From Nocardia sp. BMG51109 (GTDB lineage Bacteria > Actinomycetota > Actinomycetes > Mycobacteriales > Mycobacteriaceae): a stretch of 64,000 nucleotides of DNA. Of this stretch, positions 41,737 through 58,203 are shown piece after piece. The stretch spans positions 2,418,001-2,482,000 of the forward strand of contig NZ_JAFQ01000004.1 of assembly GCF_000526215.1 (NCBI RefSeq). The letters are read 5' to 3'. The notes under the pieces were generated by a model. It saw nothing but the letters and a program-made list of their open reading frames with translations. It was not told the origin of the DNA and ran no database searches. Within the stretch, counting starts at the first letter, position 1; each line of letters opens with the position of its first letter. The translations under genes and the position numbers were made by a program.

Positions 41737-42504
41737 TCAGGTGGTCCTGCGGCGGAATGTGGTTTTCGCCCAGAGGTAGCCGACGATCGCGATGCCCGCG
41801 CACCAGGCGAGGGCGATGAGGGCGTTGTTGCCGATCTCCGTGCCCATCAGCAGGCCGCGCAGGGTCTCGGTGATCGGGGTGAAGGGCTGGTACTCGGCGA
41901 ACTGGCGGACGCCGGTCGGCATGGTGTCGGTCGGGACCAGGCCGCTGCCGAGCATCGGCAGGTATACGACGGGCATGGGGGTGTTGCTGGCGCTCTCCGG
42001 ATTCGAGGCCGAGACGCCGAAACCCGCACCGAGCCAGTTCAATGCGAAGACCACCACCGTCAGCAGGCCCACCGCGGCCACCCATTCGAGCGGGTCGGCA
42101 TTCGGCCGGAACCCGAGCAGCAGCGCGACGCCGACCATCAGGGTGATGCCCAGCAGCCCCTGGATCAGCGTGCCGAGCACCTCGCCGGTGAGTATCGCGG
42201 AGTGCGACATCGACATGGTGCGAAAGCGATTGACGATGCCCTTGGTCATATCCGTCGCCACCGACACCGAGACCGATGTGACCAGCAGCGCCGGGACCAG
42301 CAGGATGATGCCCGGGGCGAGGTAGTCGATGTAGTCGCCGTCGATGGCGCCGCCGAGCGCGCCGCCGAACACGTAGTTGAACATCAGCAGCAGCACGACG
42401 GGCAGGGCGATCAACATCACCGTCATGCCGGGATAACGCTTGGCGTGCACCATATTCCGGCGCAGCATGGTGGCGGTATCGGCCACCGCATAGGTGGTGC
42501 TCAT
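41737..42504 (-). CDS. ABC-2 type permease, DrrB-like
   Basis: 255 residues with six hydrophobic segments. Typical ABC-2 drug-exporter features: MVHAKRYPGMTVMLIALPVVLLLMF start, YIDYLAPGIILL and the re-entrant-type FRTMSMSHSAILTGEV loop. ATG at 42504 overlaps the ATPase stop (ATGA), so the two proteins form one exporter. Third gene of the EXLDI-ATPase-permease operon. Substrate unknown; the divergent biosynthetic operon makes its product a candidate. Confidence 0.9.
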   Translation of the reverse strand: MSTTYAVADTATMLRRNMVHAKRYPGMTVMLIALPVVLLLMFNYVFGGALGGAIDGDYIDYLAPGIILLVPALLVTSVSVSVATDMTKGIVNRFRTMSMSHSAILTGEVLGTLIQGLLGITLMVGVALLLGFRPNADPLEWVAAVGLLTVVVFALNWLGAGFGVSASNPESASNTPMPVVYLPMLGSGLVPTDTMPTGVRQFAEYQPFTPITETLRGLLMGTEIGNNALIALAWCAGIAIVGYLWAKTTFRRRTT

Positions 42505-43466
42505 GACACGGTTTCCTTTTCGGGAACGTCGGGAACGGGTTGTCCGGTGAGGGTGAGGAATACGTCGTCGAGATCGGGGGTGTGCACGGCCAGCCCCTCG
42601 GGTTCGATGTCGGCGGCGTCGAGCCGGTCCAGCACGGCGCGCAGCGAACGCACGCCGCCGTCGCTGGGGATCGCGAGGGTCGGGTCGTCGGCCTGCGGCA
42701 CGCCGCCGAGCAGCCGCGCCGCGATGTCCAGGGCGGCGCGATCGGCGAACGTCAACCGGATGTGGCCACCGGGGACCAGCCGTTTCAGCTCGCCGGGTGT
42801 GCCCTGCGCGACGATGCGGCCGTGGTCGAGGACCGCGATCCGGTCCGCGAGCTGATCCGCCTCCTCCAGGTACTGCGTGGTGAGGAAGACCGTCACGCCG
42901 TCCGCGACCAGCTCGCGGATGATCTCCCACATGCCGCGGCGGCTGCGTGGATCGAGACCGGTGGTCGGCTCGTCCAGGAAGATCACCTGCGGATCGCCGA
43001 CCAGCGTCATGGCCAGGTCGAGCCGCCGGGTCATGCCGCCGGAGTAGGTGCCCGCCACCTTCTCGGCCGCCTCCACCAGGTCGAACCGGGCCAGCAGATC
43101 GTCCGCGCGGCGGCGGCCCTCCCCGCGCGGCAGATGATGCAGATCGCCCATCAGCAGCAGGTTCTCGCGACCGGTGAGCAGTTCGTCGACGGCGGAGAAC
43201 TGCCCGGTGACGCCGATGATCGCGCGCACCGCATCCGGATCGCCGGCGATATCGTGGCCGCCCACCCGGATCTCGCCACCGTCGGCGCGCAGCAGCGTGG
43301 ACAGGATGTGCACCATCGTGGTCTTGCCCGCGCCGTTGGGGCCGAGTAGCGAGAAGATGGTGCCTTCGCCGACGTTCAGGTCGATGCCGTCGAGCACGAC
43401 CTGGTCGCCGAAGGATTTCCGCAGGCCGGCGACCGCAATGGCCGGCGGGGGATATCCGGTGGTCAT
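42501..43466 (-). CDS. ABC exporter ATPase, DrrA-like
   Basis: 321 residues. Walker A GPNGAGKTT, signature YSGGMTRRLDLAM, Walker B QVIFLDEPTTGLDPRSRR, switch region LTTQYLEEADQLADR, and the C-terminal DrrA-type extension ending in LDDVFLTLTGQ. ATG at 43466 has GAGGG 6 nt upstream; longer forms lack a site. It lies 123 bp downstream of the EXLDI gene, same strand. Confidence 0.93.
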   Translation of the reverse strand: MTTGYPPPAIAVAGLRKSFGDQVVLDGIDLNVGEGTIFSLLGPNGAGKTTMVHILSTLLRADGGEIRVGGHDIAGDPDAVRAIIGVTGQFSAVDELLTGRENLLLMGDLHHLPRGEGRRRADDLLARFDLVEAAEKVAGTYSGGMTRRLDLAMTLVGDPQVIFLDEPTTGLDPRSRRGMWEIIRELVADGVTVFLTTQYLEEADQLADRIAVLDHGRIVAQGTPGELKRLVPGGHIRLTFADRAALDIAARLLGGVPQADDPTLAIPSDGGVRSLRAVLDRLDAADIEPEGLAVHTPDLDDVFLTLTGQPVPDVPEKETVS

Positions 43467-43589
43467 GGTTGTCCCTCTCATCAGTGAATGGTTATGAATG
43501 CATGAATCGGCCGCGCCGTGACCACTTCGACAGTGGCCAAGGGTGGGTTGTGCCGTATTCGGTTGTGCGGGAAAGGTTCCCGCCGAGGC

Positions 43590-44111
43590 TCAGATGTCGA
43601 GATCCTCGATCTGCGGATGCTCGACGATGTCGCGCACGCGCGCGTAGAGGTTGTTCGGGATCCTCCCCTTCAGATCGGTGACCGAGTCGTAGATGTCCAG
43701 CGTGAAATCGCCCCAGTCGGGATCGCCGACGCCGAGCAGCTTGCGCCAGTTGGTCAGGTCCTTGATCCAGTTGCCGCCGCTGTCGGTGGGATATTCGGCC
43801 CACGCGGAGGTCTGCATGTGCAGCGCGAACTTGCCCTTGCGGCTGCGGTACACGCGGATGTGTTGCTGGTGCTGATCGTTGATATCGCGGAACTCGCCCA
43901 GCAGGACCCCCGAGAAGCGGACCTGTCTGCCGCCGTTGTGGCCGACGCGCAGGACGACCTCCTCGTAGCCCTGCTGCCGGCCCTCCTCCAGTTCGATGAA
44001 CCGGCGCAGCGCCGTCACGATCGCCCCCGACAGATTGCCGCCGACCAACTCCTGCGCGCGCTGGAACAGGGGCAGGTCGTCGTCGGATACGTACACGGTC
44101 TTGTTGGGCAT
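43590..44111 (-). CDS. EXLDI family protein, putative ribbon-helix-helix regulator
   Basis: 173 residues ending in the family-defining EDLDI. The N-terminal KTVYVSDDDLPLFQRAQELV followed by GGNLSGAIVTALRRFIELEE has the strand-helix-helix pattern of Arc/MetJ-type DNA-binding proteins (my reading). The rest is a beta-rich domain (RVYRSRKGKFALHMQTSAWAEY, DIYDSVTDL). ATG at 44111 lies 7 nt after TATAGT, and a perfect palindrome overlaps that box, implying autoregulation. First gene of the exporter operon. Confidence 0.82.
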   Translation of the reverse strand: MPNKTVYVSDDDLPLFQRAQELVGGNLSGAIVTALRRFIELEEGRQQGYEEVVLRVGHNGGRQVRFSGVLLGEFRDINDQHQQHIRVYRSRKGKFALHMQTSAWAEYPTDSGGNWIKDLTNWRKLLGVGDPDWGDFTLDIYDSVTDLKGRIPNNLYARVRDIVEHPQIEDLDI

Positions 44112-44118
44112 GTGAATC

Positions 44119-44124
44119 ACTATA
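44119..44124 (-). promoter_or_regulatory. -10 box (TATAGT), leaderless EXLDI operon
   Basis: Good TATAAT match, 7 nt before the EXLDI ATG on the minus strand, sharing four bases with the palindrome at 44121-44136. Confidence 0.55.
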
Positions 44125-44136
44125 CGTAGACGTATA
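44121..44136. promoter_or_regulatory. 16-bp palindrome, candidate EXLDI operator
   Basis: TATACGT-AG-ACGTATA is a perfect 7+2+7 inverted repeat overlapping the -10 box of the EXLDI-DrrAB operon. Occupation would block that promoter; the divergent biosynthetic operon starts only 160 bp away. It contains TACGTA, as does the array at 13050-13085. Confidence 0.6.
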
Positions 44137-44295
44137 CATACACACAAGGGCTGTCGCGGAACGGCAACCGCCGGGCGTTGCCGGCAGGGGGTGCTCGGTT
44201 CAGCCCTAGGTGTGTGAACTCCCCGCTGCCGTGGGTCGTATTCCGGGCAGAGCGAACAACGATCGTGCGCTCGGGCCCGGCAGAAAGGAGCCCTC

Positions 44296-46014
44296 ATGCC
44301 ACCACGGGCAGTGGATTATCTGGTGCAGGCCGTCGCGACCCTCGGGGTCCGGCACATCTTCGGCGTGGACGGCGCCAACATCGAGGACCTCTACGACGCG
44401 ATCTTCGACTCGCCCCACGACGTGACCGGTGTAGTGGCCAAGCACGAGTTCTCCGCCGCCACCATGGCCGACGGATACGCGCGATCCACCGCCGGACTCG
44501 GCGTCGTGTGCGCCACGTCCGGCGGCGGCGCCATGAATCTCGTTGCGGGGCTGGCGGAATCGTTCGCCGCGCGGGTGCCCGTGCTGGCGCTGGTCGGGCA
44601 GCAGCCGGCCGCGCTGGAAGGGCGGGGCGCCTTCCAGGATTCCAGCGGTCTTGCCGGGACCTTCGATGCCGCAAGGCTTTTCGAACAGATCACGCGGTAC
44701 TGCGCCCGGGTGGACGCGGTCGACGCGCTGCCCCGGCACCTGTCCCGGGCGGTGACGGCGGCCCGGCGGGGCGGCCCGGCGGTGCTGTTGCTGCCCAAGG
44801 ACGTTCAGCAGGCGGAGATCGGTGACCTGCCCCCGTTCGTCGCGCCGCGGCCGTCCACCGCCCGGGACGACGCCGGGCTGGACCGGGTGGTGGCCGAGCT
44901 GCATTCGGCCCGGGCCACCGGCAAGATCGTGATCATCGCCGGTGATCAGGTGGCCCGCGACGGCGCCCGCGACGAATTGCGGCACCTGGCAGCGGTATTG
45001 GATGCCGCGGTGGGCGTGGCCCCGGACGCCAAGGACGTCTACGGCCCCGACGAACCCGGATTCTGCGGCGTGTCCGGCACCATGGGTCACCCCGAACTCG
45101 TCGACGCCGTGCGGCGTTCGGCGCTGTGCCTGCTGGTCGGCACCCGCATGCCGGTCACGGCCCGGGCCGGGCTGGACGACGCGCTGCGCGGCCCCGCGCT
45201 GGCGAGCGTGGGCGCCGAACCGCCCTACCCGGCGTCGGTGCACGCCACCAGCGCCGACCTGAGGACGGCCCTCGCCGAACTCGCCGCATCCCAGGGCGCC
45301 ACCGAGCCCGAACCGGCGCCGCACCGCCCAAATCCCTCCGACGGTCCCTTCTTCGCCGCGGCGCGCCCGCGCGAGCTGACCCCGCTCGAGGTGCCCGCCG
45401 CCACCGGCCCCGGGCTGCGCTACCGGGACATCGTCGAAACTCTCAATGCCACCGTCGATCCCGGCACCGACGTCTTCGCCGACGCCGGCAATACGGGTGC
45501 GTCGGTGGTCCACCACCTGCGCCTCCCCCGTGGTGGCCGGTTCGTCGTCGCGCTGGGCATGGGCGGCATGGGGTACGCCTTCGGCGCCGGCATCGGCTCG
45601 GCCTTCGCGCGGCGGCGGCGCTCCGGCGGCGGCGTGCGGCGCACCCTGGTGGTCGCCGGGGACGGCGCATTCTTCATGCACGGCATGGAGATTCACACCG
45701 CGATCGAGCACGAGCTACCGGTGACGTTCCTGGTGTTCAACAACAACGCGCACGCCATGTGCGTCACCCGGGAACAGCTGTACTACGGAGATCGCTACAG
45801 CTTCAACCGATTCCAGCCCGCCCACCTCGGCGCGGGCGTGGCCGCCATGTTCCCGCGGCTGCCCTCGTACTCCCCCACCGGCACGGACGAACTCGCCGCC
45901 GTGCTGGACCACTGCTTCGAAACCACCGGGCCGTCGTTCGTCTCGATCGACTGCGACCCGGACGAGATCCCGCCGTTCGCTCCATTTCTCTCGATACCCA
46001 GGAGGAATCCGTGA
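44296..46014 (+). CDS. thiamine-diphosphate-dependent enzyme, acetolactate synthase-like
   Basis: 572 residues with the three-domain ThDP fold. N-terminal pyrimidine-binding domain with catalytic Glu E51 in VAKHEFSAATMADGYAR; central domain (about 190-330); C-terminal pyrophosphate domain with GDGAFFMHGMEIH and NNNAHAM, the GDG...NN metal motif. It should decarboxylate an alpha-keto acid and either release an aldehyde or ligate it to an acceptor. It is not an anabolic acetolactate synthase by context: no regulatory subunit or ilvC nearby. AAAGGAG lies 5 nt before ATG 44296. First gene of a four-gene coupled operon. Confidence 0.9.
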   Translation: MPPRAVDYLVQAVATLGVRHIFGVDGANIEDLYDAIFDSPHDVTGVVAKHEFSAATMADGYARSTAGLGVVCATSGGGAMNLVAGLAESFAARVPVLALVGQQPAALEGRGAFQDSSGLAGTFDAARLFEQITRYCARVDAVDALPRHLSRAVTAARRGGPAVLLLPKDVQQAEIGDLPPFVAPRPSTARDDAGLDRVVAELHSARATGKIVIIAGDQVARDGARDELRHLAAVLDAAVGVAPDAKDVYGPDEPGFCGVSGTMGHPELVDAVRRSALCLLVGTRMPVTARAGLDDALRGPALASVGAEPPYPASVHATSADLRTALAELAASQGATEPEPAPHRPNPSDGPFFAAARPRELTPLEVPAATGPGLRYRDIVETLNATVDPGTDVFADAGNTGASVVHHLRLPRGGRFVVALGMGGMGYAFGAGIGSAFARRRRSGGGVRRTLVVAGDGAFFMHGMEIHTAIEHELPVTFLVFNNNAHAMCVTREQLYYGDRYSFNRFQPAHLGAGVAAMFPRLPSYSPTGTDELAAVLDHCFETTGPSFVSIDCDPDEIPPFAPFLSIPRRNP

Positions 46015-46670
46015 CCACCAGTTCCCTGCCCGCGCTCAGCGATATTCCGCAGCAGGACATCCCCGAGATCCTGCGCATCGAGAACTCCGATCGCGAGGCC
46101 ACGACGCCGATCATCATGGACATGCTGCGGTCGGTGTATCCGCACGACCAGATCTACGGCGAGTACTGCCCGGTGCAGTCCTACATCGCCGCACCGCCGC
46201 GCGAGGTCTACGAGTATCTGGCCGACACCCGCAGCCTGGAGGAATGGACCTACAGCCTGCGCGGATTCGTCGAGACCGACGAGCCGGGGCTGTGGCTGGC
46301 CTACGACCGGCTGGGTTCGGAAACCGAGATCTACACCCGCACCGTCGCCAACCCGGACGCGCTGACCGTCGACTACCACTGCGCCTGGGACCAGGGCAAA
46401 CACCTGTGGATGATCTACCTGATGCGGGTGGTCGACGCCCAGGTGGTGTTCGACAAGCCGGGTTCGGTGGTGCTGTGGATGAACTGCCGCCACCCGTTCT
46501 ACGACGACAACCCCTACCCGGAGACCGCGCCGCCGAAGCGGCCGGTGTGGGTGGGTGACTTCTGGGACATGTTCTCCGCCGGTCATCAGCTGGAGATGAA
46601 CAACCTCAAGGCGATCTGTGAATACCGGGCGGCGCACGGCCTGCCCGTCACCCCCGACTGGATGAAGTGA
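46011..46670 (+). CDS. SRPBCC (START-like) family protein
   Basis: 219 residues. After a 60-residue polar N-terminus comes a START-type cavity domain: VQSYIAAPPREVYEYLADTRS, WTYSLRGFVETDEPGLWLAYD, LTVDYHCAWDQ and a C-terminal helix with SAGHQLEMNNLKAICEYRA. Such proteins act as cyclases/aromatases or lipid binders in biosynthetic clusters. GTG at 46011 overlaps the ThDP gene stop (GTGA) and has AGGAGG 5 nt upstream. Its substrate presumably comes from the ThDP or KASIII-like enzyme. Confidence 0.82.
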   Translation: MTTSSLPALSDIPQQDIPEILRIENSDREATTPIIMDMLRSVYPHDQIYGEYCPVQSYIAAPPREVYEYLADTRSLEEWTYSLRGFVETDEPGLWLAYDRLGSETEIYTRTVANPDALTVDYHCAWDQGKHLWMIYLMRVVDAQVVFDKPGSVVLWMNCRHPFYDDNPYPETAPPKRPVWVGDFWDMFSAGHQLEMNNLKAICEYRAAHGLPVTPDWMK

Positions 46671-46681
46671 GGCACGCGCCG

Positions 46682-47722
46682 ATGGATTTCACCGAACCCA
46701 CCCTGTCGCTGCCGCCGGTCAGCCTGGTCGACGTGGCCGGATATCTGCCCGGGGACCCGGTCGGCACCGAGTATTTCACGCAGTTCTCCCGTTCCGAGCG
46801 GATGGCCAAGAACGTGATGTTCCGGGCGCCCAAGGCCCGCCATCACGTCGATCGGGACGAGACGGCGGTCGACATGGTCGAGCGCGCCGTCGCGCCGTTG
46901 ATCGAACGTCATGGGGCACGGGTCGTTTCGGATGTCGACGTGGTGATCACCCATACCCAGCTGCCGACCAATCCGGTACTGGGCGCCGGGCCCGAGGTGG
47001 CCCGGCGGCTCGGGATGCGCCCGGGCTGGGTGCTCGACGTGCACAACGGCGGCTGTGCGGCATTCATCCACATGATGTCGCTGGCGCGGATGATCCTGCA
47101 GACCACCAGCGCCCGCAGCGCATTGATCGCGGCGGTCCAGAACACCGCGGGCCCGGTGTTCACGCAGAGCACCATCCGTGGGCTCGCCCAGGCCCCGGTG
47201 CCGGGCGACGGCTGCGGTGTCGGGCTGCTGATGAAGAACAACCGGGCGCCGATCCTGGACATCGAGGCCCGCACCTATCCCGAATTCGCCGGCGATATGG
47301 ACTTCGGCACCAACTCGGAGCGCAAGTACTGGGAGCCGGGGGAGGGGCAGGGCTGCGTCAGCTTCAACGAATCCAAGATCACCAAGGTGTTCGCGCGCGG
47401 CAACCGGCTGGTGCCCGAGGTGGCGCTGGCGGTCTGTGAACGGATCGGGATGAAGAGCCGCGACGTCGATACCTTCGTCACCAATCAACCCAACCGGTTG
47501 TTCCTGCGCAACTGGCACGACGCGCTGGAGCTGCCGGCGGAACGTCATCCCGACACCTTCGACCGGTGCGGAAACCTGTTCGCCGCGGGCATTCCCGTCA
47601 CGCTGGATGCCGAGAATCGGGCGGGCCGGCTGCGCAACGGCTCGGTGGTGCTGCTGTCGGCCTTCGCGCACGCCGGTGATTTCGCCGCCGCGGCCGCCGT
47701 GCGCTGGGGGGCCGCGGAATGA
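46682..47722 (+). CDS. KASIII-like (3-oxoacyl-ACP synthase III family) enzyme, altered active site
   Basis: 346 residues, thiolase fold. The nucleophile C125 lies in LDVHNGGCAAF, and N298 in DRCGNLFAAGIP matches the third catalytic residue. The usual PHQAN His is replaced: FVTNQPNR has N268. Loss of that His argues against normal decarboxylative condensation and for acyl transfer or another reaction. ATG at 46682 has GAGG 9 nt upstream, 11 bp after the SRPBCC stop. ATGA overlap with the next gene. Confidence 0.87.
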   Translation: MDFTEPTLSLPPVSLVDVAGYLPGDPVGTEYFTQFSRSERMAKNVMFRAPKARHHVDRDETAVDMVERAVAPLIERHGARVVSDVDVVITHTQLPTNPVLGAGPEVARRLGMRPGWVLDVHNGGCAAFIHMMSLARMILQTTSARSALIAAVQNTAGPVFTQSTIRGLAQAPVPGDGCGVGLLMKNNRAPILDIEARTYPEFAGDMDFGTNSERKYWEPGEGQGCVSFNESKITKVFARGNRLVPEVALAVCERIGMKSRDVDTFVTNQPNRLFLRNWHDALELPAERHPDTFDRCGNLFAAGIPVTLDAENRAGRLRNGSVVLLSAFAHAGDFAAAAAVRWGAAE

Positions 47723-48885
47723 GCGGCAACCGGTCCACCTCGGCCCGGCGCCCCTCGGCCCGGCAGTCGGTGCGGGCGCAGCACACGATGCCGCGACAGG
47801 TGACGAATCCGGTCCGCTTCGATCTGCGGCTGAGCGAAAACCCGTTTCCGCCACTGCCCTCGGTGGTCGAGGCGATGAACGGCACGCTGGCGCAGGCGAA
47901 CCGGTATCCGGAATTCCTGCCGCACCGGCTGCCGCGGCTGATCGCCGGGCAGGTGGGGGTGTCCGAGGACCAGATCGTGGTCGGCTCGGGGGCGACCGGC
48001 GTGGCACTGCAGATCATGCAGGCGCTGACCGCCCCGGGCGACGAGATGGTCCACGCGACACCGACCTTCGACGGCTACCCGATCCTGGCGGGGATGGCGG
48101 GGCTGAAGACCGTTGCGCTGCCGCTGGATTCGCGGGGCCGGCAGGACCTGTGGGCGCTGGCGCGGGCCGTCGGCGATCGCACCGGGCTGGTCGCGGTGTG
48201 CCGTCCGCACAACCCGACCGGCACCGTGGTCCCGGCCGCCGAACTCAAGGCATTCCTGTTCGGGATGCCGCGCGACGTGCCGGTGGTCCTGGACGAGGCC
48301 TACGTCGAATTCCTCGGCGCCGACGACACTCTCGACGCCGTCGGGCTGGTCTCCCGCTATCCGAATCTGCTGGTCCTGCGGACCTTCTCCAAGGCCTACG
48401 GGCTGGCCGGGCTGCGCATCGGCTACGCGATCGGTCAGACGGACCTGGTGCGCCGGGTGCGGCGGTTGCAGCTGCCGTTCGGGGTGCCCGAATCGGCGGT
48501 CACCGCGGTGACCGCCTCCTACGCCGCGCGGCGGGAGCTGGACGATCGGGTGCTGCGCATCACCACCGGGCGCGAGATGCTGCGAACGACGTTGCGCTGC
48601 CACGGTATCCGCGTGCCGCGCAGTCGCGCGAACTTCCTCTACCTGCCTGGTGCGGACGTCGCCGACCGGCTGGCCCGGGCAGGCATCGCGGCCAAGACCT
48701 ATCCGGACGGCAGTGCCCGGATCGCGGTCGGCGATCCGCTGTCGGACGCCGCGGTCCGGCGGGTGCTGACCGAGCACGCACCGGTCGGCGGACATCGGTT
48801 CCGGTCCCGGCGCGAGGACACCGGCATGTGCACCTACACCGTGCGATCCGAATCGACCGGGGACGGCGACGACCAGAAAAACTAG
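47719..48885 (+). CDS. PLP-dependent aminotransferase, HisC-like
   Basis: 388 residues, fold-type I class I/II. VRFDLRLSENPFPPLPSVVEAM, YPEFLPHRLPRLIA, RPHNPTG, VLDEAYVEF and the PLP-Lys block LRTFSKAYGLAGLRIGYA. The C-terminus extends about 30 residues beyond the HisC core with a polar tail (GMCTYTVRSES). No other his genes are nearby, so a role in amination of the operon's product is more likely than histidine synthesis. ATG overlaps the KASIII-like stop. Confidence 0.9.
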   Translation: MSGNRSTSARRPSARQSVRAQHTMPRQVTNPVRFDLRLSENPFPPLPSVVEAMNGTLAQANRYPEFLPHRLPRLIAGQVGVSEDQIVVGSGATGVALQIMQALTAPGDEMVHATPTFDGYPILAGMAGLKTVALPLDSRGRQDLWALARAVGDRTGLVAVCRPHNPTGTVVPAAELKAFLFGMPRDVPVVLDEAYVEFLGADDTLDAVGLVSRYPNLLVLRTFSKAYGLAGLRIGYAIGQTDLVRRVRRLQLPFGVPESAVTAVTASYAARRELDDRVLRITTGREMLRTTLRCHGIRVPRSRANFLYLPGADVADRLARAGIAAKTYPDGSARIAVGDPLSDAAVRRVLTEHAPVGGHRFRSRREDTGMCTYTVRSESTGDGDDQKN

Positions 48886-49121: not shown

Positions 49122-49916
49122 TCACAGGCTGCTCCGGAGCAACGCCTGATTGGATGCGGTGGAACGGATCTCGATGGAACGGATCTGATCCGGCGGGGCG
49201 GCGGTGGTGCCGTCGGGCGCCACGGTCTCGCCCGGCTGGGCCGTCCACTGCGCGATCATCGACTGGGTGCCGTCGGCGTGCAGTACCCACATCGAACCCT
49301 GCCACGTGTACTGCGTGGCGGACGGTGCGTAGCTGCACGTCATTTCGACCCGGGTGCCGTCGGGTACGGCCACCACCCGGAAACTGGCGGTGATCGGCGA
49401 GGGAACCACCGGATCCATGCTCCGCTCGGCCACCACCTGGGGAACGGCCGCCGGAGCGGGGCTCTCGCTCAGCGAGGTCGTCACCGGGATCGCGATGGCC
49501 GCCGCCGCGACGGCCGCGGCCACCGCCCCCGCGGCCGCGAGTGCCCGCCCGCGGCGGCGCTCCTCGCGCGCCCGGGTTGCCAAGCGGGACAGTGGTATAG
49601 GCGCGGGCATCGGCGCGGACGTGGGCATCGGCGCAGACGCCGCCGGGTGACCGAACGCACCCGGATCCTCGTACGCGGTCGGCTCGCCGGGTACCGAATC
49701 GACCAGCGACAGCGCCACACCGGCATTCACCTGCCCGAGCAACCCGGGCATCCCGGCCAGCTCCGCCACCGCCTCCCGGCACCGCGCGCACTGCGCCAGA
49801 TGCGCCTCGAATTCCCATCGTTCGGCACGGTCGAGGGCGCCGAGAACGTAAGGGGCATCCCACGTCGCGTACGCGTCGTCGCCGCCGGGCACCGCCGTTG
49901 GCGCCGTGTCCGTCAC
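49122..49916 (-). CDS. rslA: anti-sigma factor, RslA-like
   Basis: 264 residues. The N-terminal anti-sigma domain has the zinc motif H-x3-C-x2-C (FEAHLAQCARCREAV); one membrane helix (AAAGAVAAAVAAAAIAIPV) and an external C-terminal domain with YTWQGSMWVLHADG follow. In mycobacteria RslA holds SigL inactive and releases it on oxidation of this zinc site. GTG at 49916 overlaps the sigma stop (GTGA). Confidence 0.88.
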   Translation of the reverse strand: MTDTAPTAVPGGDDAYATWDAPYVLGALDRAERWEFEAHLAQCARCREAVAELAGMPGLLGQVNAGVALSLVDSVPGEPTAYEDPGAFGHPAASAPMPTSAPMPAPIPLSRLATRAREERRRGRALAAAGAVAAAVAAAAIAIPVTTSLSESPAPAAVPQVVAERSMDPVVPSPITASFRVVAVPDGTRVEMTCSYAPSATQYTWQGSMWVLHADGTQSMIAQWTAQPGETVAPDGTTAAPPDQIRSIEIRSTASNQALLRSSL

Positions 49917-50494
49917 TTCGTCACCCCCATCTCCTGTAGTGCCGAGCGCAGCGCGCGCATGCCGTAGTGCATCCGGGATTTCACCGTGCCCTCGGGGATG
50001 GCCAGTTCCGTCGCGATCTGCTGGGTCGACAGGCCACGGTAGTAGGCGCGCACGATCACCTCGCGGTGGTCGATGCTGAGCCGGGCGAGCGCATCCGTGA
50101 TCAGCCAGCCGTCCAAGGCGCGGTCCGCCTGGTCCGGGGTCGGCTGCTCGGGCGGCTTGTCGGTGCGGAACTCCCGGCGATGGCGGGCGCTGCGGTACTC
50201 GTCCACCACCATGTTGCGGGCCACGGTGAACAACCACGCCCGCGCCGAGGCGGTCGACTGATCGAGGACCTGCGGGCGTTGCCACGCCCGCAACAGCGTC
50301 TCCTGCACGATGTCCTCGGCCCGCCCCGAATCCCCGACGAGGCTGTAGGTGTAGCGCCACAGCGCCGCCGAGTGCTGGTCGTACAGCACCCGCAGCAGCT
50401 CCGCCTGAGCCGGGTCACCACCGACGGCCGGGAGTGCGGGAGCGCCGCCGCGAGACGGCTGGGTATCGGATCCGTCACTGGGCGAGCGTGCCAT
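49913..50494 (-). CDS. sigL: ECF RNA polymerase sigma factor, SigL-like
   Basis: 193 residues. Region 2 (LYDQHSAALWRYTYSLVGDS, AEDIVQETLLRAWQRP, ARAWLFTVARNMVVDEYRS) and region 4 (LSIDHREVIVRAYYRGLST, IPEGTVKSRMHYGMRALR), ending LQEMGVTK. This matches mycobacterial SigL nearly throughout as I recall it. SigL controls wall/envelope and polyketide genes. Upstream region not resolved into a promoter. Confidence 0.9.
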   Translation of the reverse strand: MARSPSDGSDTQPSRGGAPALPAVGGDPAQAELLRVLYDQHSAALWRYTYSLVGDSGRAEDIVQETLLRAWQRPQVLDQSTASARAWLFTVARNMVVDEYRSARHRREFRTDKPPEQPTPDQADRALDGWLITDALARLSIDHREVIVRAYYRGLSTQQIATELAIPEGTVKSRMHYGMRALRSALQEMGVTK

Positions 50495-50560
50495 ACGCTC
50501 GCCTGGTCGATCGTCGGATCACGGATCCGGAAATAGTGGCCACACTAGGCGTATACGTTT

Positions 50561-51175
50561 TCAGTTCCGTTCCAGTTCGATCGGATGCGTGGCCAGCATC
50601 GACAGCGGCAGCGGCTGTCGGCGCAGCACCTGAGCCCACAGGTCGGCGCGGCCGGCGATCGGGTCGCTCGGCAGGGCCGACAGCACGATCCAGTCGCCGC
50701 GCTCCAGCTCGCTCTCCAATTGCCCGAACGTCCAGCCCGCATAGCCAGCGAAGACACGGATACCCTCCACCATCGGCGCGATCACGTCCGGATCGGAATC
50801 CAGATCCAGCAGCGCCACCCGGCCGTCCACCCGGCGCAGGCCGGCGGACCGATCTATCGGGGTGCCCACCTTCACCGTGGCCAGGCACAGTGCCGCGTCG
50901 CGCTTCACCGGGCCGCCCAGGTACAGCGAACCTGGTGCGGCCGCCAGCTCGCCCCAGCGCGGTAGCACGTCCCCCACCGGCGTGTCGCTGGGCCGGTTGA
51001 TGACTACGCCGAGGCTGCCGGCGTCGTTGTGCTCGACGATGTACACGACGGTGCGCCGGAACGAGGGCTCGGTCAGATCGGTCGCCGAAACCAGCAGCGT
51101 GCCGGGCCGCACCACCTGTTCCTCGTGCTGGGATTCCCGTCCGAAGCGGTCGCCGTGTTCCTCTGCGCGTGCCAC
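50561..51175 (-). CDS. YqgE/AlgH family protein (DUF179)
   Basis: 204 residues. Family blocks: VRPGTLLVSATDLTEPSFRR, VYIVEHNDAGSLGVVINRP, LYLGGPVKRDAALCL, GYAGWTFGQLESELERGDWIV and PLSMLATHPIELERN. Conserved in mycobacteria (Rv0038 type); molecular function unknown. GTG at 51175 gives the usual length; ribosome site weak. Separated from sigL by 66 bp on the same strand. Confidence 0.88.
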   Translation of the reverse strand: MARAEEHGDRFGRESQHEEQVVRPGTLLVSATDLTEPSFRRTVVYIVEHNDAGSLGVVINRPSDTPVGDVLPRWGELAAAPGSLYLGGPVKRDAALCLATVKVGTPIDRSAGLRRVDGRVALLDLDSDPDVIAPMVEGIRVFAGYAGWTFGQLESELERGDWIVLSALPSDPIAGRADLWAQVLRRQPLPLSMLATHPIELERN

Positions 51176-57039: not shown

Positions 57040-58203
57040 TCACGCCGTGCGCTCCTTCGCGGGCACCGGGCCGGCATCGGCATGCAGGATGGCGTCGGCC
57101 GAGTCGACGACTGCCTGGTCGAGGGGAGCGTAGGCCAGCCCCGCCCGCATGTCCGTGCGCGTGCGTGCGGAAGGGACCGCGGCGGCGCTCGTCAGGCCCC
57201 AGGTGGTGATGTGCCCCTGCAGGAACCCCTCGTAGGTGTCCGGATCCGGCTCTCCGAGCCCGAGGGCTGCGCTGCGACCCAGACTGCCGACGACGACGGT
57301 GTACCGCCGGTCCAGCAGGGCGCCCACGATGGCGCCGGCGGGGGACCAGTCGACGGTCATCCCCGCCATGCGCATACTGCTCCGATTGCGTTGCAGGTGA
57401 GCGTTGTTGGCGAAAACCAGCGTCGGGCCGCGCTGCTCCTCGATGCCGCGGATGTCCAGGAGGTTCCGGGCCATGAGCGTGTCCCGGGCGGCCAGCAGGC
57501 CGGATATTCGGGCGCCCTCCTCGATCCGCCGGGCGGCCTGCTTGTGGTAGCGCAGCAGCCCGAGGCCGGCGGTGAGGTGGGTGCGGGCCCGGAACCAGTC
57601 GGCGCGCGAGGTCGCCGCGATCAGCTCCGCCGCGCGGGTGTAGAGCGCGGTGAGCAGGTCGTCGGCGATCGCCCGCAGGTGCGCGGCCGCGGGGCTGTCG
57701 CCGATCGACAGGGCGGGGTCCAGGATCGCCTCCTGGCGGCTCCACCGTTCGTCGGCGCCCAGCAGGTTCGCGAGGTCTAGGTCGAGTCCCAGATAGTCGC
57801 GCGCGTATTCGAGATAGCGCCGGGGACTGGGTGCGCTGGTGTTCTCGGTCGGCGCGTCGAAGCCGTGGAAGGCCAGCCGTTCCGTGGCGGGGCGGCCCTC
57901 GTTGTATTCGCGCATCCAGGTGACCAGCCGGCGGTTGGCCTCCAGCTCGCCGAATCCGTGCGAAAAGCCTTGCCCCATCGCCTTTTCGAGTGTTCCCACG
58001 CCGTCCTGGACGAAGTCGTTCACCGCGAGCGCCGACACCCGATCGGTCTCCAGGGCGATGGACCGGAAGCCTTGGCGCGCAAGCGATGCGAACAGTTCGT
58101 TCCGGAGGGGCCCGAAGGCCGGTTCCTGCGTCGGGTGTGCCGGTTCGCCCAGTGCCAGCAGCTCACACGGCGGATTGGCGAAGTCTCGAATCTCCTGGCT
58201 CAT
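57040..58203 (-). CDS. erythromycin esterase family protein
   Basis: 387 residues. The EreA-like motifs are present: LLALGEPAHPTQEPAFGPLR with the conserved Glu and His, IALETD, LAFHGFDAP and LVFANNAHLQRN. Family members hydrolyse macrolide lactones, though many homologs have other or unknown substrates. ATG at 58203 lies 8 nt after TACGAT. Divergent from a TioE/MerR regulator, a pairing I recall from other actinobacteria. Confidence 0.87.
   Translation of the reverse strand: MSQEIRDFANPPCELLALGEPAHPTQEPAFGPLRNELFASLARQGFRSIALETDRVSALAVNDFVQDGVGTLEKAMGQGFSHGFGELEANRRLVTWMREYNEGRPATERLAFHGFDAPTENTSAPSPRRYLEYARDYLGLDLDLANLLGADERWSRQEAILDPALSIGDSPAAAHLRAIADDLLTALYTRAAELIAATSRADWFRARTHLTAGLGLLRYHKQAARRIEEGARISGLLAARDTLMARNLLDIRGIEEQRGPTLVFANNAHLQRNRSSMRMAGMTVDWSPAGAIVGALLDRRYTVVVGSLGRSAALGLGEPDPDTYEGFLQGHITTWGLTSAAAVPSARTRTDMRAGLAYAPLDQAVVDSADAILHADAGPVPAKERTA

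Follow-up and report, generated by a model that had tools for sequence, protein, structure and literature searches.

A four-gene Nocardia operon linked to SigL-RslA that probably encodes a minimal carbazole pathway

The carbazole core of carquinostatin (cqs) and neocarazostatin (nzs) from Streptomyces is formed by an aminotransferase (AT; CqsB7), a thiamine diphosphate (ThDP) enzyme (CqsB3), a KASIII-like condensing enzyme (CqsB1) and the cyclase CqsB2, for which a mechanism with attack via the indole C4a-C9a electrons and the residues Y144, Y172, H206, E209 and E105 has been proposed (PMC7466098). Indole-3-pyruvate is the donor of NzsH (PMC9822442), and the clusters also carry genes for an acyl carrier protein (ACP), a supplying KASIII, a prenyltransferase and an isopentenyl diphosphate (IPP) isomerase (PMC7466098). 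The chlocarbazomycin cluster chlCz encodes AT, ThDP, KASIII and SRPBCC proteins, the last of 199 aa, next to an ACP and flavin adenine dinucleotide (FAD) and short-chain dehydrogenase/reductase (SDR) oxidoreductases, and uses a halogenase; a non-beta-hydroxy acyl donor has been proposed for it (PMC10100901), and the order of its accessions suggests that the ThDP gene adjoins the KAS gene. Here we describe an operon with the same four enzyme classes from Nocardia sp. BMG51109, in a window of 64,000 nt (the whole stretch of DNA analysed; GCF_000526215.1, NZ_JAFQ01000004.1, positions 2,418,001-2,482,000, GC content ca. 70%), which probably encodes a minimal carbazole-building machine that is sister to the Streptomyces cqs/nzs pathways and controlled by the redox-sensing pair SigL-RslA.

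The operon lies on the forward strand and comprises genes for a ThDP enzyme with all three TPP domains (N, M and C; 44296-46014), a 219-aa SRPBCC protein that we regard as a candidate CqsB2/NzsI-like ring-A cyclase (46011-46670), a KASIII-like condensing enzyme in a putative CqsB1/NzsJ role (KAS; 46667-47722, with an ACP_syn_III_C domain) and a class I/II AT dependent on pyridoxal phosphate (PLP) with a presumed CqsB7-like role (47719-48885). A previous sequence-only reading had claimed these genes together with three divergent neighbors, and family searches recovered all seven in place. The gene coupling that it described also held, with GTGA at 46011-46014 between the ThDP and SRPBCC genes, ATGA at 47719-47722 between the KAS and AT genes and a KAS start either at GTG 46667, within another overlapping GTGA, or at ATG 46682, leaving an 11-bp gap. 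Just downstream of the operon follows a convergent sigL-rslA pair on the reverse strand (49122-50494) that was absent from that reading.

The SRPBCC protein has no Pfam match, and its sole strong match in the PDB is the carbazole synthase CqsB2 of the carquinostatin pathway (6ipv; E 9.8e-48, with 83 of 186 aligned residues or 45% identical). Its residues Y136, Y164, H192 and E195 correspond to CqsB2 Y144, Y172, H206 and E209 and are, like D99, invariant across 23 sequences of the window lineage. An AlphaFold2 model (pLDDT 81.5) found 6ipv as its top fold (E 1.9e-17, followed by 8e-06) with a poor root-mean-square deviation of 19.6, so that we place weight on sequence and residues, by which the protein is a relative of CqsB2. 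A scytonemin-type cyclization was considered and rejected as the primary interpretation, the match to ScyC reaching only 23.2 bits at a cut-off of 400. Distant SRPBCC paralogs of 35-39% identity occur in some Nocardia genomes; for two such copies (L084 and L085), the surrounding ca. 8 kb yielded no ThDP or KAS gene of this kind.

The ThDP enzyme has BbmA and CsmA as best PDB matches and intact motifs (Glu51 in KHEF; GDG...NNN starting at residue 455). In a tree with six ThDP paralogs from its own genome, it falls into one clade with the cqs/nzs-type ThDP enzymes (100/100) and, by this placement, belongs to the CqsB3/NzsH-type clade. The KAS tree similarly contains a split (100/99) that sets the KAS of the window and the CqsB1/NzsJ type apart from FabH, CqsB5 and a third paralog of the same genome. 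At the active site, the position of the catalytic His is taken by Asn273, alongside Cys130 and Asn303. Among 152 distinct KAS of at least 45% identity to that of the window (a threshold that leaves aside eight loci without such a KAS), Asn replaces His in 150, with one Ser and one sequence not covered, and the Cys is kept in all 152. All four cqs/nzs-type KAS have the catalytic His, so the enzyme of the window departs from their Cys-His-Asn triad. The AT has an intact motif (Lys225 in SKAYG), and its best PDB match is the Phe aminotransferase 4r2n. It falls into the HisC/aromatic class, yet scores below the cut-offs of HisC-type models (NF002878, 314.6 bits at a cut-off of 374), and its most likely step, as far as homology indicates, would be the conversion of tryptophan to indole-3-pyruvate. 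Another Asn-type KAS, with 46% identity to that of the operon, is encoded elsewhere in the same genome (L260; C4:6469000-6488000), in a lipid-like cluster with desaturase, AMP-binding, PP-binding, CMAS, SDR, NAD_binding_4, DAO, acyl-CoA dehydrogenase and MaoC genes. By eye, a similar gene set borders carbazole-type genes at one Streptomyces locus (L225); tailoring in trans from L260 was considered, and no evidence linking L260 to the operon was found.

For comparison with the known clusters we used five cqs/nzs-type loci whose SRPBCC proteins are 70-98% identical to CqsB2, as stand-ins for the published cqs/nzs records. All five have the order KAS-SRPBCC-ThDP, unlike the ThDP-SRPBCC-KAS-AT of the window, and identities to the window proteins are 24-26% for KAS and 35-36% for the ThDP enzyme. 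Relatives of CqsB2 were detected in 36 of 392 Streptomyces genomes (genus inferred) at 38 places; five genomes hold the 70-98% identical copies, whereas the other places range from 41% to 49%. We read 20 of these 38 places (the five of high identity and 15 of the 33 others) and found the order ThDP-SRPBCC-KAS at all 15 places of lower identity, six of them with an AT gene directly after. Streptomyces locus L225 resembles a chlCz/carbazomycin-type cluster and falls into the window lineage. The likeness of chlCz itself to the window rests on its published description (PMC10100901), and no counterparts of its ACP, FAD and SDR oxidoreductases or halogenase were seen beside the operon. Since its KAS lacks the His, we file the operon as a sister lineage of the cqs/nzs pathway and not as a member; it probably works like carbazole core formation. 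The operon stands apart by its gene order, its KAS active site, its apparent control by a redox sigma factor and how broadly it is conserved, and by the lack of tailoring genes among ca. 31 window proteins scanned.

Of 301 family genomes, 102 carry the SRPBCC gene, spread over 16 of 31 genera and 117 places. A scan of 84,980 species genomes gave 514 encoding stretches, and Nocardia accounts for 72 of the best 80, which were kept; among 120 of 866 protein matches listed, the named genera include Nocardia, Rhodococcus, Gordonia, Williamsia, Tsukamurella, Mycobacterium and Mycolicibacterium. Operon layout was read at 60 of the 117 places. All four genes are collinear at 42 of them, two loci have SRPBCC-KAS only, three are rearranged and three have SRPBCC alone, the rest lacking a detected AT (see below). 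This conservation of the four-gene set is far beyond chance. In rearranged loci L081, L082 and L083, SRPBCC-ThDP and KAS-AT lie on opposite strands.

The downstream gene at 49913-50494 (reverse strand) encodes a homolog of the M. tuberculosis extracytoplasmic function (ECF) sigma factor SigL (6dv9, E 8e-63; NF007227, 250.7 bits at a cut-off of 202), and its partner at 49122-49916 (reverse strand) encodes a membrane anti-sigma factor homologous to RslA (zf-HC2; 3hug_B, E 2.5e-17) with the zinc motif HLAQCARC (HxxxCxxC) and a score below the cut-off of the anti-sigma model NF052375 (44.3 bits, cut-off 100). Oxidation makes M. tuberculosis RslA give up its zinc and weakens its binding to SigL 8-fold (PMC2877774). 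In a SigL search across the 301 family genomes (E <= 1e-45, scoring no more than 10 candidates in each genome), the SRPBCC gene was present in 55 of 60 SigL-bearing genomes versus 47 of 241 without a SigL match (Fisher p 7e-26, uncorrected for relatedness), and the two genes lie within 10 kb of each other, at 3.0-8.7 kb, in 51 of the 55 genomes with both. Judged by this association, SigL-RslA is the regulator evolutionarily linked to the operon, and SigL appears to switch it on. Among the openly accessible literature matches listed, titles and abstract beginnings gave no link between SigL, Nocardia or mycobacteria on the one hand and this operon or the biosynthesis of carbazoles on the other. 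At nine loci from four genera, such as those of the Gordonia and Williamsia type (L049, L052, L056 and L057), response-regulator-like and kinase-like genes were seen by eye upstream of the operon at the SigL-RslA position, which suggests a swap of regulators; the neighbor clustering behind this view mixes shadow open reading frames with genes and served only to spot candidates.

The SigL consensus is TGAACC-N16-CGTgtc. A SigL-type promoter, TGAACT-N16-CGT(AT), lies on the forward strand at 44215-44239, which is 57-81 bp ahead of the start of the ThDP gene and a position roughly conserved across Nocardia; a similar site, CGAACT-N16-CGT(ATA), lies upstream of sigL on the reverse strand (50555-50579). 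We scored a strict motif (TGAACY-N16-CGTA) and a relaxed one (GAACY-N16/17-CGT) in which the spacer sequence varies freely. Upstream of the ThDP gene, distinct Nocardia sequences contain the strict form in 65 and the relaxed form in 79 of 83 cases, and the motif is present in all four Antrihabitans. Mycobacterial loci have the relaxed form there in 17 of 18 cases and the strict form in none of seven, because the mycobacterial form mostly ends in CGTGT. Upstream of sigL, the relaxed motif occurs in 36 and the strict motif in none of 45 distinct Nocardia sequences, and the relaxed motif in all 24 mycobacterial loci. Control regions gave relaxed matches upstream of EXLDI in 2/73, DrrA in 5/70, MarR in 0/20 and adk in 0/19 cases, and random windows, true sites included, gave 420/9660 relaxed and 71/9660 strict matches. 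The 8.79-Mb genome, in 4 contigs, contains three sites of the form TGAACY-N16-CGTAT, with one for the reversed control. Some Nocardia carry second complete operon copies (L071, L072, L074 and L075; SRPBCC identity 64-65%) that also have TGAAC(C/T)-N16/17-CGT upstream, with no SigL in the stretch read.

Among 26 mycobacterial loci read, 16 show the order sigL-rslA-ThDP-SRPBCC-KAS-AT. At 13 of these 16, rslA and a MarR gene directly flank the operon, and what we take by eye to be secY-adk-mapA precede; two loci have a gap of ca. 2.6 kb ahead of sigL. In four genomes without an SRPBCC match, rslA is followed directly by MarR between the same flanks, as it is in one genome whose SRPBCC gene lies on a different contig; in a second genome of that kind, rslA was not detected at the site. 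Two sites have sigL-rslA only, at one locus the operon and MarR are present and rslA lies ca. 6 kb away, and one holds an operon copy without sigL. The SigL-RslA locus of mycobacteria shares with the window a homologous sigma and zinc anti-sigma pair and the promoter type. In M. tuberculosis, the MarR gene rv0737 lies immediately downstream of sigL-rslA, which is the operon-less order, and the SigL targets named are lipid, redox and DNA-repair genes (PMC13002591). That SigL and the operon also occur together in Nocardia, Antrihabitans and others makes loss of the operon in some mycobacteria the simpler assumption.

From the computed homology, catalytic residues, clades, gene order, SigL linkage and promoter conservation, we infer reactions, substrates, acyl chain, product, induction and an antioxidant role as follows. 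Oxidation would strip zinc from RslA and thereby free SigL, which would then use the TGAACY-N16-CGT promoter to transcribe the four genes. The AT would convert tryptophan to indole-3-pyruvate, the ThDP enzyme would join it with pyruvate, the KASIII-like enzyme would release CO2 while attaching an acyl chain drawn from the fatty-acid metabolism of the host, and the SRPBCC protein would close and aromatize ring A. By analogy, the product is most likely an alkylated 3-oxygenated carbazole, which as a 1-alkyl-2-methyl-3-oxygenated compound might protect lipids as a lipophilic antioxidant, a role also reported for the lipocarbazoles of Tsukamurella. These antioxidative compounds were described from Tsukamurella pseudospumae, as the title of a paper cited in PMC7466098 indicates; they are 3-oxygenated (PMC7466098), and their producer belongs to the same order as the window host. 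No biosynthetic genes for lipocarbazoles were found in the literature surveyed, and a 2020 review calls the machinery for mono-oxygenated (lipocarbazole-type) carbazoles unidentified. The SRPBCC gene is present in 15 of 16 genomes of the genus whose nearest named relative is Tsukamurella, and three Tsukamurella-like loci differ from the window in having neither an adjacent SigL nor a detected AT.

A different aromatic starter would change this outcome, as an AT that supplies phenylpyruvate or another keto acid would lead to an indole-free, acyloin-derived ring and not to a carbazole. The Phe aminotransferase as best PDB match of the AT, the KAS active site unlike that of CqsB1 and the weak ScyC match of the SRPBCC protein all fit such a starter, but we judge it improbable given that the catalytic residues of CqsB2, whose mechanism uses the indole C4a-C9a electrons (PMC7466098), are kept and that the ThDP enzyme falls into the clade of NzsH with its indole-3-pyruvate donor (PMC9822442). 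Somewhat easier to imagine, though still unlikely, is that the operon is indeed regulated by SigL but makes a signal, pigment or metal-related compound instead of an antioxidant, since a catechol- or ortho-quinone-type carbazole could conceivably bind metals; an antioxidant is favored by the radical-scavenging or antioxidative activity reported for several simple carbazoles of this kind (PMC7466098) and by the sensing of oxidation by RslA (PMC2877774).

Finally, the operon might form a single cluster for biosynthesis, export and repression with its divergent neighbors, which are encoded on the reverse strand as a DrrB-type ATP-binding cassette (ABC)-2 permease (41737-42501; PF01061), a DrrA-type ABC ATPase (42501-43466; TIGR01188, 319.8 bits at a cut-off of 312.45) and an EXLDI protein with an N-terminus that looks ribbon-helix-helix-like by eye (43590-44120; TIGR04342, 113.5 bits at a cut-off of 32). 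The sequence-only reading had taken them for a dedicated exporter and repressor, and their divergent position would agree with this, as would the closeness of EXLDI and SRPBCC (within 6 kb in 91 of the 94 Nocardia genomes with both) and the palindrome TATACGTAGACGTATA (44121-44136) in the shared intergenic region. However, while 115 of 118 Nocardia genomes carry EXLDI and 97 carry the SRPBCC gene (in one of them, G1044, the sole copy is of a second type for which no ThDP gene was detected), EXLDI is kept in all 21 without an SRPBCC match, and three genomes have the operon alone. Of these 21 operon-less sites, 14 were read and showed DrrB-DrrA-EXLDI in order in ten cases, rearranged in one and EXLDI alone in three; one of them still has sigL-rslA beside EXLDI. 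EXLDI was found at 80 of 95 Nocardia loci versus none of 66 from other genera, and the SigL-type motif is at background upstream of EXLDI and DrrA. One neighbor cluster at the EXLDI position has one g23 and one Streptomyces member. Where the operon occurs without EXLDI, two of the three loci resemble those of other genera in having sigL-rslA right ahead of the ThDP gene. We have rejected DrrAB-EXLDI as part of the pathway and consider a single cluster very unlikely: DrrAB-EXLDI is a unit found in nearly all Nocardia that has the site in common with the operon, but not evidently the function.

The palindrome, which is perfect and lies just upstream of EXLDI, is a possible operator for EXLDI itself. 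The compact four-enzyme logic of the sequence-only reading survives in that the ThDP enzyme may join keto acids, the KASIII-like enzyme may add an acyl group and the SRPBCC protein may cyclize, whereas the PLP enzyme, cast there in a last, aminating step, most likely acts first. Its failure to recognize a known cluster of this composition is not borne out, as the four families form the core of the bacterial carbazole pathways cqs, nzs and chlCz (PMC7466098, PMC10100901); a match to a characterized cluster, which it had named as a refuting result, thus exists at the level of pathway type, although an identical cluster was not found. Farther along the window, a gene with an erythromycin-esterase domain (57040-58038; PF05139) lies beside that of an HxlR-type regulator and is unrelated to the operon.

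Several observations weigh against a SigL-controlled carbazole pathway. On the side of the enzymes, CqsB2 E105 is replaced by D99, leaving four of five catalytic residues identical; the KAS tree has long branches, and the KAS reaction may differ given the absent catalytic His; the AT is 35-45% identical to the ATs of the five cqs/nzs-type loci and thus not clearly closer to them than to its nearest paralog in the same genome (39%); and 10 of the 52 collinear loci have ThDP-SRPBCC-KAS without a detected AT. No ACP, supplying KASIII, prenyltransferase or other tailoring genes were seen in a Pfam scan of ca. 31 window proteins, mostly at 34-63 kb. On the side of regulation, SigL occurs without the SRPBCC gene in five genomes, each of genus g29 (Mycobacterium), and 6 of 20 Nocardia genomes with the SRPBCC gene gave no match in the SigL search described above, although the motif is present in all six. 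The motif upstream of the ThDP gene is absent from seven Gordonia and three Tsukamurella-like loci, occurs in one of four in genus g23 and was not found in six further genera (g27, g10, g6, g11, g7 and g8). Streptomyces loci gave 0/20 strict and 1/20 relaxed matches, and all 140 distinct sequences together 71 strict and 95 relaxed ones. Moreover, the literature surveyed contained no metabolite, expression or enzyme data on a SigL-linked operon.

A broader and more tentative idea, to which we give slightly less than even credence, is that a redox-induced pathway to carbazole antioxidants is ancestral and common to the mycolic-acid bacteria, with SigL-RslA as its dedicated switch, joined by MarR in Mycobacterium. 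Mycobacteria that lost the operon, apparently including M. tuberculosis, would then keep SigL-RslA-Rv0737 at the emptied site after the loss of its first target, and the KAS branch with Asn for His would make mono-oxygenated carbazoles of the lipocarbazole type. The operon offers candidate genes for lipocarbazoles, and its condensing enzyme presents a natural His-to-Asn change of the active site that is kept across a large family. If the proposed pathway is true, the redox-sensing SigL-RslA pair, which has been studied in M. tuberculosis, would gain a concrete original target, and carbazole chemistry, best described from Streptomyces, would gain a conserved place in Nocardia, Rhodococcus and environmental mycobacteria.

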